A program made the translations under genes and the position numbers. Positions 6,738 to 53,970 of a DNA stretch of 54,516 bases are shown here, piece by piece. Under the pieces are notes generated by a model. It saw nothing but the letters and a program-made list of their open reading frames with translations. It searched no databases and was not told the origin of the DNA. The DNA comes from Anaerolinea thermophila (GTDB taxonomy: Bacteria; Chloroflexota; Anaerolineae; Anaerolineales; Anaerolineaceae). The stretch's first letter is position 1; each line of letters opens with the position of its first letter. Where the stretch lies: NCBI RefSeq assembly GCF_020723905.1, contig NZ_DYHZ01000010.1, positions 1 through 54,516 on the forward strand. Reading direction: 5' to 3'.

Positions 6738-7625
6738 ATGAATCCCAATCCTCTCTTGAAAAAACTGGGCTTCTCCGATTCGGATCGGGTGGTTTTGATT
6801 CACGCTGACGATGTCGGTATGTGTCAGGCGAGTGTGCAAGCCTTTGCAGACCTGACCGCGTTTGGGCTGGTTTCCTGCGGGGCAGTGATGGTTCCCTGTT
6901 CCTGGGCGCCTCTGGCAGGGGCTTATGCTCGAGAGCATCCGGAAGCCGATTTAGGAGTGCACCTGACCCTCACCAGCGAGTGGGAGCATTACCGCTGGGG
7001 ACCGTTATCCACCCGCGATCCGCGCTCGGGGCTGCTGGATGAACAGGGATATTTCCCCCGCCGCACTGAACCTGTGCAGGAAAAGGGCAATCCACGGGCT
7101 GTCAGGCGTGAACTGGAAGCGCAACTGGCGCATGCCCGCGGTTTGGGTATCACTCCCTCTCATGTGGATACGCACATGGGCACCGTGATTCATCCCAGAT
7201 TTCTGGATGCCTATATTGGCACGGCGCGGAAATACCACCTCCCGGCGATGATTTTACGTCAGGATGAAACTGCCCTGAGGCAAATGGGGTTGAATCCCCT
7301 GACGGCAAAGATTGCCGCACGCTGGATTGAACGTCTGGAACGGGAAGGCTTTCCTTTGCTTGATCACATTGTGATGATGCCGCTGGATCAATGGGAAGAT
7401 CGCCTTGAACTGGCAAAGGAAGTGTTCAAAACGGTAAAACCGGGACTGACCCACTTCATTATTCATCCGGCGGCAGACTCGCCCGAGATACGCGCCATCG
7501 CTCCCGATTGGCGGGCACGGGTGGCTGACTGGCAGGTATTCCAGAGCCCGCAACTGCGTCAGTTTCTGCAACAGGAAGGCATTCACGTCATCGGCTACCG
7601 TGCCATTCAATCCCTCATGAGGTGA
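6738..7625 (+). CDS. YdjC/ChbG-family carbohydrate deacetylase
   Basis: The 295-residue protein carries the family metal site: HADDVGM (Asp24/Asp25), a His in GVHLTLTSEW, and HVDTHMG around residues 142-147. YdjC/ChbG proteins remove N-acetyl groups from chitobiose-like or other acetylated oligosaccharides in the cytoplasm. AGGCAGGA precedes the ATG. The next gene begins almost at its stop codon and is a sugar symporter, which supports a role in processing an imported oligosaccharide. The exact sugar cannot be told from sequence. Confidence 0.88.
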   Translation: MNPNPLLKKLGFSDSDRVVLIHADDVGMCQASVQAFADLTAFGLVSCGAVMVPCSWAPLAGAYAREHPEADLGVHLTLTSEWEHYRWGPLSTRDPRSGLLDEQGYFPRRTEPVQEKGNPRAVRRELEAQLAHARGLGITPSHVDTHMGTVIHPRFLDAYIGTARKYHLPAMILRQDETALRQMGLNPLTAKIAARWIERLEREGFPLLDHIVMMPLDQWEDRLELAKEVFKTVKPGLTHFIIHPAADSPEIRAIAPDWRARVADWQVFQSPQLRQFLQQEGIHVIGYRAIQSLMR

Positions 7626-51620: not shown

Positions 51621-51692
<72 letters not shown>

Positions 51693-51725
51693 CTTCCACA
51701 GGGATTCCATCCCTGTACCGCACAG

Positions 51726-51984: not shown

Positions 51985-52452
51985 ATGACTGCCTTACCTG
52001 TATTTATACCACTTTCCGAAGCCGCCCGCAAATACGGGCTGGAAGAAGCCTGTTTGCGCCAACTGATTGAGAAAGGTAAAATCAAGGCTGCAATGATCGC
52101 AGGTGAGATGGTGGTGAGCGAAGAGGAAGTAAAAAAGCGGGCAGAGCAAGATCTTATCTCCGGCGTAACAAAAGAAGATTTACCGGAGTATCAAAGATTT
52201 TCTCAACTGTCGGGTGTTGGAATTGGAATAAACGAGGCTGCAAAAAAATATAACATTCCATATACAACTTTATATAGATGGCTAAAAAGAGGTTTCATTT
52301 CAACAATAGGAAGAGACGGACAAAAAGTTCTCATCAATGAGCAGGAAGTAGCTTTTTGCGAATTTTTTTATCGTCCTCACAAACATCGAGGCAAGAAAAT
52401 TTTTACTTCAAATGGGTTACCATTACAAAAACAATATAAGTCTTTAGTATAA
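51985..52452 (+). CDS. Excisionase-like HTH DNA-binding protein
   Basis: The 155-residue protein appears to hold two MerR/excisionase-type helix-turn-helix units: IPLSEAARKYGLEEACLRQL near the start, and INEAAKKYNIPYTTLYRWLK near residue 90, followed by INEQEVAFCEFF. The tail is basic. The second half of the gene is clearly A+T-rich compared with the flanks, which suggests transfer. No ribosome site is seen before the ATG at 51985; a TTG at 51970 is an alternative. It may regulate or direct excision of a mobile element. Confidence 0.7.
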   Translation: MTALPVFIPLSEAARKYGLEEACLRQLIEKGKIKAAMIAGEMVVSEEEVKKRAEQDLISGVTKEDLPEYQRFSQLSGVGIGINEAAKKYNIPYTTLYRWLKRGFISTIGRDGQKVLINEQEVAFCEFFYRPHKHRGKKIFTSNGLPLQKQYKSLV

Positions 52453-52464
52453 AGCAAAATCGTT

Positions 52465-52734
52465 ATGGAAGAATTAAAGTGCCAATATCCTCAATGTAAA
52501 AACAAACCGAAGAAGAAATGCACCAAGTGCGGCAAATTGTTTTGCGAATTACATCTCAGATATGGAAATCCCAGACTTGCATTTGGATCTTTACAAAGTA
52601 GTATTGGTAATTATTGTGATGATTGTTGGATGTTATTAGAAAAACAAGGTAGACTTGAAAGAATTTTAGTGCCACTTATAGGAGGGCTAACAATGATTAT
52701 CATAGCTTTGGCTATTAGATGGTTGTTGTTTTGA
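52465..52734 (+). CDS. Small zinc-finger protein with C-terminal membrane span
   Basis: The 89-residue protein starts with CQYPQCKNKPKKKCTKCGKL and then FCELHL, with a later YCDDCW. This is a compact Cys/His zinc-binding arrangement similar to AN1/B-box fingers. Residues about 68-88 form a membrane span. It follows the HTH gene by 12 bases and is A+T-rich like it. Function unknown. Confidence 0.6.
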   Translation: MEELKCQYPQCKNKPKKKCTKCGKLFCELHLRYGNPRLAFGSLQSSIGNYCDDCWMLLEKQGRLERILVPLIGGLTMIIIALAIRWLLF

Positions 52735-52784: not shown

Positions 52785-52809
52785 GTCTTAAAACTTATCC
52801 ATGTTGTTG

Positions 52810-52838
52810 TTGACAAACATGGATAAGTATGTTATATT
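52810..52838 (+). promoter_or_regulatory. Strong promoter before a gene-free region
   Basis: TTGACA (52810-52815, perfect consensus) and TATATT (52833-52838) are exactly 17 bases apart. The next protein gene is nearly 800 bases away, so the transcript would begin with a long non-coding stretch. Confidence 0.75.
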
Positions 52839-52844
52839 CAGCAT

Positions 52845-53042
52845 AGCACCTTCCCAAACCGACATTCAACAGCCTCAAACACAACGCCCCGGCACAGGGC
52901 GTTGTGCGCCCGACCGGGGCGTTCCGTGAGCCGTGTTGGTGGCACGCTCACGGTGAGGCAAGCAGGGCATATCTGCTCACCTCGCTGATTATTGTATCAC
53001 GAGAGAACGGACACCCTGCCAAACCCGGCAGGGTGTTTGTTT
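52845..53042 (+). ncRNA. Candidate structured RNA with promoter and terminator (~200 nt)
   Basis: Successive hairpins follow the promoter: CACAACGCCC/GGGCGTTGTG (52880-52906), CGCCC/GGGCG (52907-52921), CCGTGAGC/GCTCACGG (52924-52953) and GGTGAG/CTCACC (52952-52981, sharing two bases with the previous one). Last comes a perfect 10-bp stem ACACCCTGCC/GGCAGGGTGT (53011-53036) with TTGTTTAG after it, which could terminate or merely be another stem. No protein frame fits. Family unknown. Confidence 0.55.
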
Positions 53043-53057
53043 AGCGGTGTTGGCTCG

Positions 53058-53105
53058 TTCAGGCGGTTGGCGCGTAGTGGCAGGTTCGATTCCTGCCCGC
53101 CTGAA
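53058..53105 (+). other. Minimal tRNA-like module (acceptor plus T arm)
   Basis: TTCAGGCG (53058-53065) pairs with CGCCTGAA (53098-53105). Inside is GGCAGG-TTCGATT-CCTGCC (53079-53097), with a canonical tRNA T loop. The 13 bases between hold GTTGG, similar to a D loop, but there is no anticodon arm. It may be a tRNA-like domain or a remnant of a tRNA 3' end. Confidence 0.6.
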
Positions 53106-53111
53106 TGGACA

Positions 53112-53127
53112 GCCGGGAGAGACCGGC
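53112..53127 (+). other. GAGAGA-loop hairpin, copy 1
   Basis: GCCGG-GAGAGA-CCGGC, followed by AAAGCACCT. A second hairpin with the same six-base loop lies at 53338-53353. Confidence 0.65.
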
Positions 53128-53183
53128 AAAGCACCTTACCAACTCGACGACATGGTAAATCCTCCTTTCTCACCTCCTTTCAG

Positions 53184-53247
53184 CCAGCCGCGCAGAGACG
53201 GGGGCGCTGTCCCGCCCCCGTGGTGGGTGCAACTCCCACCCGGCTGG
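53184..53247 (+). other. Cloverleaf-like three-way junction
   Basis: CCAGCCG pairs with CGGCTGG (7 bp). It encloses ACGGGGGCG-CTGTCC-CGCCCCCGT (9 bp) and GGTGGG-TGCAACT-CCCACC (6 bp, seven-base loop). The plan is that of a tRNA without a D arm. Confidence 0.6.
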
Positions 53248-53262
53248 TCTGCCGAACCTGTC

Positions 53263-53285
53263 GGGGCTGCTGACCCCATCAGCAG
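53263..53285 (+). other. Possible H-type pseudoknot
   Basis: GGGG (53263-53266) pairs with CCCC (53274-53277). The loop CTGCTGA between them is complementary to TCAGCAG (53279-53285). The two stems may stack as a pseudoknot, or the second may form alone as a hairpin. Confidence 0.45.
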
Positions 53286-53337
53286 GCAGGTGCAGCCCGG
53301 CGCACCCTAACCAGTGCCGGGAACAGGCAGGGTGACG

Positions 53338-53353
53338 GCCCGGAGAGACGGGC
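53338..53353 (+). other. GAGAGA-loop hairpin, copy 2
   Basis: GCCCG-GAGAGA-CGGGC, followed after AGGGG by CAAAGACCT, similar to the sequence after copy 1. The stem differs from copy 1 by a compensating C-G swap with the loop unchanged. Confidence 0.65.
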
Positions 53354-53622
53354 AGGGGCAAAGACCTGGCGGTGTATGAGGATAAACCGCCGACTGTCCT
53401 GTCCGTGAATGCGACGAGCGGCGCTAACCACCCTCCGACAGCGAAAGCGGGAGAAGGCGCCGATCCGATCCCGTGGTGGTACGGGGATGGACCGGGCGGC
53501 AGGACGGCACGGGCAACCGGTGTAGTCAGCAGGTTGAGCGAGGGGTGCGAATTCGAAACCACGCACACACGCAACCACGGCGCAAATAAATGCGATCCCA
53601 AAAGAGAAGAAAGGACTTGAGC

Positions 53623-53970
53623 ATGTTAGAACTCCAACTGATTGGCAACCTGGGCAAAGACCCGGAAGGACGTTACACGCAGGAGGGTGTGTTCGTATGC
53701 ACCTTCCCGGTGGCAGTCTCCACCCGCAAGGACGAAACCGTCTGGGTGGAAGTGAGCGCCTGGCGGGAACTGGGCGAACGCTGCCACCAGTTTCTGGCGA
53801 AGGGACGCCAGGTGTTCGTGCGGGGCGTTCCCACCCTGGAAGCCTTCACCCGCAAAAACGGCGAAGCGGGCGCCGCGCTGAAAGTCACCGCGCAGACGGT
53901 GCAGTTTCTGGGTGTGAAAGGCGGCGGCGAGGAACGCGGTCACGCCGCTGAAGAAGAGATTCCGTTTTAG
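53623..53970 (+). CDS. ssb: Single-stranded DNA-binding protein
   Basis: The 115-residue protein has an OB fold: LQLIGNLGKDPEGRYTQEG, VCTFPVAVS, WVEVSAWRELGERCHQFLAKG and RQVFVRGV. It ends in the acidic tip EEEIPF, which binds partner repair and replication proteins. It is shorter than housekeeping SSBs because the linker is brief, as is common for copies on mobile elements. AAAGGA lies before the ATG at 53623. It lies directly after the structured RNA region. Confidence 0.92.
   Translation: MLELQLIGNLGKDPEGRYTQEGVFVCTFPVAVSTRKDETVWVEVSAWRELGERCHQFLAKGRQVFVRGVPTLEAFTRKNGEAGAALKVTAQTVQFLGVKGGGEERGHAAEEEIPF

Follow-up and report, generated by a model that had tools for sequence, protein, structure and literature searches.

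In Anaerolinea thermophila, the DNA in front of an ssb gene specifies a conserved RNA that lies at the left end of a mobile element of Anaerolineae. The stretch of 54,516 nt that was analyzed, here called the window, contains this RNA together with its promoter and a regulatory gene (Table 1). Judged from its sequence features, the region resembles a long control leader more than a giant RNA that acts on its own: a terminator-like hairpin, a convergent antisense −10 element and the lack of a separate promoter-like site for the next gene together argue for the leader of an operon. It is probably a repressor-plus-antisense-RNA attenuator fused to a long, tRNA-mimicking leader of the element's first operon. 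The window RNA has no Rfam family: at gathering score, no RNA family except tRNA was found in the window and related loci, and a literature search, judged by titles, retrieved no report of this RNA.

Table 1. Features of the leader region and its surroundings (window coordinates).
Feature	Position	Strand	Basis and remarks
tRNA-Met(CAT)	51621..51693	+	ARAGORN, Rfam; presumed chromosomal attachment side of element
HTH_17 protein	51985..52452	+	Pfam HTH_17, E 4e-14; two HTH-like stretches; presumed cognate repressor/regulator
Small Cys-rich protein gene	52465..52734	+	Separates HTH gene from promoter; L022 has a similar ORF
Presumed operator	52793..52828	.	Perfect inverted repeat, 13-bp arms; spans −35 box
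Sigma-70 promoter TTGACA-17-TATATT	52810..52838	+	TG before −10; 11/12 consensus matches
RNA leader/ncRNA	52845..53622	+	Homologous copies, alignment; presumed start 52845 (conserved AGCACCTT)
Predicted antisense RNA, ~105–110 nt	52876..52984	-	Ends inferred from antisense −10 and terminator position
Long hairpin AACGCCCCGG...CCGGGGCGTT with inner hairpin	52883..52923	+	MFE, antisense terminator scan
Hairpin P4 CCGTGAGC...GCTCACGG	52924..52953	+	Invariant in 13/14 copies; not found in L149
Hairpin P5 AGCAG...CTGCT	52961..52977	+	14/14 copies
Convergent extended −10, TGATACAAT on minus strand	52991..52999	-	TGnTAnAnT in 13/13 copies
Terminator-like hairpin ACACCCTGCC/GGCAGGGTGT + TTGTTT	53011..53042	+	Candidate attenuator
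tRNA mimic	53058..53105	+	Acceptor helix, D-loop-like linker, T-arm; covariation
GAGAGA hairpin 1	53108..53128	+	Stem GCCGG/CCGGC (53112–53127)
Three-way tRNA-like module, T-loop TGCAACT	53184..53247	+	Covariation; model R2
GAGAGA hairpin 2	53334..53354	+	Different stem GCCCG/CGGGC (53338–53353)
3' module	53400..53566	+	75% identity over 171 nt to L149 (another family), E 1e-25
ssb	53623..53970	+	Pfam SSB, E 1.6e-19; first known gene behind RNA in window

Coding Status, Folding and Covariation

The preliminary description of this DNA had singled out positions 52845–53600 as ornate, RNA-like sequence. This reading holds, as the region is non-coding and unusually foldable (z −4.5), and the tRNA-like modules and the GAGAGA twins are present as read in a G+C-rich, gene-free stretch. 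A coding sequence, named there as one way in which the reading could fail, is disfavored by an ORF test and by indels: none of five window ORFs tested is nearly full-length and stop-free in more than two of 11 other copies (identity about 30–40% in those that are stop-free), and the indels among copies include lengths of 1, 4, 10, and 13 nt. Folded as RNA, 52845–53600 reaches −356.7 kcal/mol compared with −318.9 ± 8.5 kcal/mol for 20 shuffles (z −4.46), none of which was as stable. The signal lies in the first 400 bases, with z-scores of −4.27 for 52845–52990, −4.31 for 52991–53110, −2.8 for 53110–53250, −1.4 for 53250–53390 and +0.26 for 53390–53530; the last third is average, though partly conserved. 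For 52845–52990, the opposite strand is just as foldable (z −4.37).

Compensatory changes occur in both tRNA-like modules and disfavor decayed tRNA, the other origin considered in the preliminary description. In the first module, the T-stem has changes on both sides at three pairs, and 100% of cells are paired (12 sequences, nine of them distinct); of 500 shuffles, eight matched this count of both-sided pairs and 482 matched the number of pair types. The second module shows both-sided changes at five of 19 pairs (12 sequences), and its variable arm has at most two unpaired sequences per pair in a part where the alignment is poor. The stems of the 5' domain have no both-sided changes in the counted copies and hence no covariation by that count. 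An RNAalifold pairing of this domain, P2/P3, was rejected, as its stems barely vary; the long hairpin is preferred because of the MFE fold and because of L149, which reads CGCCCCTC...GAGGGGCG at this place and is compensated there by eye.

Relatives and Distribution

A DNA search of 61 relatives returned matches in six genomes and a second copy in the window's own genome; one of the six (G019) proved to be merely a terminator-like hairpin between ordinary genes. Relatives were also found by a genome search with a covariance model, as proposed in the preliminary description: R1, a model of the 5' domain for which matches above 120 bits are called strong, has 13 strong places in eight of 147 family genomes. 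Counts over loci are not independent, since these 13 copies are related to one another and L151 barely differs from L154. Partial or degenerate R1 copies are present in G004 and G062. No further strong place was found in a sample of 396 class genomes, and in a sample of 251 order genomes four had a match, one of them (G848) from another family. Outside the family, one divergent and one cut copy are located in two other families; the copy in G298 (L125), from another family, is cut by the contig end. Among the named records with copies are Anaerolinea thermolimosa, Bellilinea caldifistulae and Thermanaerothrix daxensis. Weak R1 matches (17–22 bits) in G062 (C37), G129 (two) and G109 were discarded, as they resemble coding or intergenic DNA or tRNA; the weak matches in total also include G106 and six at class level, which lie outside the inspected set. 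Phage and plasmid records searched by blastn and viral contigs gave no match.

Behind the RNA, ssb follows in eight of the nine family copies with a continuing contig (window, L021–L023, L028, L029, L031 and L085), while L030 has no ssb match there; copies cut by a contig end (L026, L027, L082, L086) stand outside this count. In several relatives, the first known gene behind the RNA is Cys-rich or PolX-like. These homologous copies, together with the compensatory changes, bear out the idea of a real, selected and structured RNA borne by a mobile element. That the region is functionless debris of decayed tRNAs or introns is barely credible: its tRNA-like modules and one degenerate copy (L025) would suit such an origin, whereas the compensatory changes, an alignment in which the near-invariant 5' domain is kept between genera and R1 scores above 120 bits at 13 loci speak against it. 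The motif GTGCGCCCG resembles the 5' ends of group II introns; as no intron family was found in Rfam at E ≤ 5 or 3, this candidate was dropped.

At L025 (6623–6900), a degenerate 5' domain directly behind a tRNA-Pro gene is apparently the remnant of a lost element. In L029, a second tRNA-like module with a GAGAGA hairpin stands alone at 1700–2300, apparently in intergenic DNA and about 5.5 kb from the full RNA locus. Several contigs end in or beside the RNA region (window 54516, L021 8733, L026 9899, L027 1), as expected because the element is repeated. The window contig stops 546 bases behind ssb, so that most of its element is out of view.

Integrative Elements and Their Host

The copies mark the left end of integrative elements (37–65 kb where measured), where they follow a tRNA gene. 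A tRNA gene of the Met, Arg, Lys, Cys or Pro type precedes the RNA on the same strand at 10 of 11 loci (L021–L031, with L029 as the exception), and direct repeats of the tRNA 3' half lie 37–65 kb apart in three of four elements tested. One of these three, G004, has more copies of the tRNA 3' half close by at each side; the fourth element has no such repeat in the stretch searched, and the window element, whose contig ends, stands outside this test. Further tRNA-Met(CAT) genes are located just behind the RNA, inside the element, in L021 (8462), L029 (8292), and L030 (8096). The proximity to tRNA genes that the preliminary description gave for GOLLD and ROOL is thus seen at the related loci and sometimes extends to both sides of the RNA.

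The elements encode tyrosine recombinases, ParA, a TadA/VirB11-like ATPase, a T2SSF protein, a prepilin peptidase, an Erf-like annealing protein and an NF033849 protein with weak HerA/CedD likeness. Among the element proteins searched, which are part of the gene set, neither a relaxase nor a capsid gene was found, and the single terminase match is weak (E 4.5e-5). The secretion-type ATPase, T2SSF and peptidase genes, the adjacent ssb and the folding of both strands over the first 146 bases could be accommodated by a folded single-stranded DNA site (a single-strand promoter, oriT or ssi) in the leading region of a conjugating element. This reading is highly unlikely, however, given the missing relaxase among those proteins, the RNA-like T-loop motifs and T-stem covariation on the plus strand and the ordinary double-stranded promoter with its operator upstream.

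A CRISPR array in the window's own genome comprises 134 parsed spacers. One of them, located at L032 7878–7913 (G000:C10), is identical at 36 of 36 positions to the module with the GAGAGA hairpin in the RNA of a relative (L086), and shares 33 contiguous bases with the second copy in its own genome. Another (L032, at 8684) shares 22 contiguous bases with a GAGAGA-type module in L149, and GAGAGA hairpin 1 of the window matches a spacer of its own genome at 26 of 27 bases. Since these spacers match RNA modules of the element, the element has been sampled as an invader.

Promoter, Presumed Operator and HTH Protein

The regulatory gene upstream of the promoter has a relative in L031 that belongs to PHROG 66 (excisionase/regulator). 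Zinc-binding Pfam matches of the small Cys-rich protein are sub-threshold. An inverted repeat is centered on the −35 box in 13 of 14 RNA promoters, a count made without shuffle control; in the exception, L083, the script chose a repeat other than the −35-centered one. The operator sequence differs among copies while its symmetry is retained, and over 13 copies operator distance correlates with distance between the C-terminal domains of the HTH proteins (Mantel test, r 0.45, p 0.0006; partial r 0.47, p 0.0003), more strongly than with that of the N-terminal domains (r 0.33, p 0.013). At the level of sequence, the region shows a putative repressor gene and a putative operator over the sense promoter, as in systems of the CopR/RNAIII type.

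Predicted Antisense Unit and Terminator-Like Hairpins

The antisense −10 element lies in a short variable linker whose invariant letters include A.T.TA.CA, which on the other strand reads TGnTAnAnT and faces the sense promoter. Its background in the window is 0.22 per kb per strand, and the shuffle chance is 0.0076 per 40-base region, as opposed to its presence in 11 of 11 copies tested. A consistent antisense −35 was not found in the main family (13 copies). On the minus strand, the long hairpin is followed by a T-rich tail and is a candidate antisense terminator, with a weak T tract in the window family (six of 13 copies scored, without shuffles).

On the sense strand, a terminator-like hairpin is present in 13 of 13 copies according to our own script, run without shuffle control; it starts between +161 and +186, and its stems differ. 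In the window it begins at about +167, with a predicted stop at about +195. A tool scan lists this hairpin in L085 and L170 but not in the window, apparently because the stem there runs into the T tract. No promoter-like site was found on the coding strand between the RNA and ssb in the three loci scanned (window, L085 and L170). An antiterminator pairing of P5 with a terminator arm was considered and abandoned, amounting by eye to just 4–6 bp and being inconsistent.

The search was extended with a profile of the HTH proteins, which have relatives in 20 of 298 class genomes (E ≤ 1e-20) and 23 of 251 order genomes (E ≤ 1e-30). Of 41 distant loci, 28 were scored, seven are cut by a contig end and six, including L157, are without a promoter-like site. 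A strict antisense −10 lies within 230 bases of the start in nine of the 28 distant leaders compared with 1.08 expected; the mirror strand gave none. They do not count as nine fully independent cases, since L149 also matches R1 and the sequences of L151 and L154 barely differ. The other 19 leaders, among them L126, L155, L156, and L167, have no strict antisense −10. A hairpin with a T tract is present in all 10 antisense units scored (the nine distant leaders and L157), and at most two of 100 shuffles were as good in eight of these (six in L164, 30 in L138). The tool scan finds antisense terminators in L151, L154, L127, L157, L170, and L172 and none in L132 and L134. In L127, the leader is short and has a strong terminator at its end, ahead of the genes of this locus. 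By eye, other hairpins replace the 5' domain in the distant leaders. As far as the letters go, then, a convergent antisense promoter and a terminator are both found inside the leader, with a weak terminator and no −35 in the window.

Proposed Control of the First Operon

In the preferred reading, the RNA would be the 5' leader of the element's first operon, comprising ssb and the following genes in the window. The HTH protein may keep the promoter shut by binding to the inverted repeat at the −35 box, which is specific to each element. Once the promoter fires, polymerase would first transcribe the near-invariant 5' domain, while the convergent promoter, located between the last hairpin of this domain and the terminator-like hairpin, would produce an antisense RNA to it that is short, with about 108 nt in the window. 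By analogy, pairing with the antisense RNA, or its absence, could decide between a stop at about +195 and read-through into ssb by way of the long, tRNA-mimicking part. The tRNA-like, GANAGA and T-loop modules further downstream would be additional modules of the leader, and the output a copy-number-like or immunity-like control of element activation.

The plasmid pIP501 (inc18) has a repressor gene upstream, an operator that overlaps the sense promoter, a leader of some 200–300 nt with attenuation in it and a convergent antisense RNA, RNAIII, of 136 nt (PMC4981023). The upstream repressor gene and the operator on the sense promoter (both presumed here) and the convergent antisense RNA (predicted here) are common to both, and the window arrangement may work like CopR/RNAIII/repR, which is meant as an analogy and not as a claim of homology. 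The plasmid system, as described there, controls a replication initiator, whereas ssb comes first among the known genes of the window operon; the window also differs in its HTH_17 protein, its integrated element and the several hundred tRNA-mimicking bases behind the terminator. As an integrative element in which transcription termination would matter, the window element resembles the integrative and conjugative element Tn916.

Processive antitermination leaders of the put or EAR type modify RNA polymerase and cause terminator read-through. If the 5' domain RNA acted on polymerase in this manner, transcription would pass the terminator at about +195 and later ones; a near-invariant domain that directly follows the promoter and precedes a terminator-like hairpin of conserved place and changing sequence could be understood in this way. 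It is nevertheless quite unlikely, as the invariant bases ahead of the hairpin are better explained by a −10 on the minus strand than by a motif of the RNA, and, by eye, the distant leaders have other hairpins in place of this domain.

With the attenuator reading, a family of integrative elements of Anaerolineae, for which the literature search found no description, would gain a recognizable control region, consisting of a repressor with diversified operators, a predicted convergent antisense RNA gene and an attenuator-like stop, that occurs in elements of several families with little leader sequence in common. It would also suggest a way in which a short attenuator can be extended into a large ornate RNA, and would make it possible to test whether operon leaders are a source of the giant RNAs of mobile elements.

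Modules Behind the Predicted Stop

This best explanation does not account for the elaborate RNA that continues for several hundred bases past the terminator. Both tRNA-like modules of the preliminary description were recovered. The first, the tRNA mimic, has a TTCGATT loop and is devoid of an anticodon arm; the second comprises an acceptor, a variable arm and the TGCAACT loop. The GAGAGA loop is likewise carried by two different stems, as had been stated. L149 retains the tRNA mimic with an altered acceptor helix, TTGGGCGG/CCGCCCAA. mascRNA and other tRNA-like RNAs are processed by RNase P, and the tRNA mimic shares with mascRNA the combination of acceptor and T-arm. The mascRNA-menRNA match is sub-threshold and at chance level (E 0.08–0.09 in L023 and L031), and homology is not claimed. 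As a guess, RNase P might cut at the tRNA mimics and either free the 3' part or trim the mRNA. A rather unlikely extension would make the leader both switch and product, with the RNase P cut, after relief of repression and escape from the antisense RNA, freeing a stable, ornate RNA of 400–800 nt. If true, this would be a further class beside GOLLD and ROOL and a large-RNA system tied to element-specific immunity control, in which the GANAGA-loop hairpins and T-loops might serve in assembly or target the translation machinery of the host.

The preliminary description had further suggested kinship with GOLLD and ROOL. Size, mobile-element setting and nearby tRNAs are similar, but membership of either family is not supported: the comparison with the GOLLD, ROOL, OLE, and HEARO models proposed there gave no match for any of them, neither at relaxed Rfam thresholds for the first three (E ≤ 5 or 3) nor for HEARO at gathering score or E ≤ 5. 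GOLLD is described as having a universally conserved 3' region, and GOLLD env-38 lies downstream of a Met-tRNA (PMC12286853). Both RNAs are large, ornate, borne by mobile elements and near tRNA-Met; the window RNA differs in having no model match, in its position in front of an operon and in its conserved 5' end, the GOLLD pattern of a conserved 3' and variable 5' part being absent, as the window 5' domain is near-invariant and the 3' modules vary, with one 3' module conserved. ROOL shares the size and the mobile-element setting, and again there is no model match.

Alternatively, the RNA might be a free, trans-acting, large ornate RNA of the GOLLD/ROOL kind, possibly a homo-oligomer, that is merely transcribed upstream of ssb. 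This is less likely than the attenuator reading. Its size, stacked structured modules and association with tRNA genes, including the tRNA-Met genes just behind it in three loci, would fit, as would the twin hairpins with a common loop and the 3' module conserved in another family. On the other hand, Rfam offers nothing except tRNA, the conserved end is the 5' one, and modules vary between copies even within one genome; furthermore, the terminator-like hairpin stands early in the RNA, and the following gene is without a separate promoter in the loci scanned.

Several distant leaders contain modules of a similar kind. By eye, L155 has a GAAAGA hairpin, a terminator-like stem (unlisted by the tool) and a T-arm minihelix. 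Directly behind the element promoter in L156, positions 2090–2177 form a tRNA according to Rfam (48 bits) that is missed by ARAGORN and has an odd anticodon arm. In the element leader of L172, positions 7271–7392, whose tmRNA match of 13.6 bits (E 0.0013) is below the gathering score, are tRNA-like with a 3' CCA and a large insertion.
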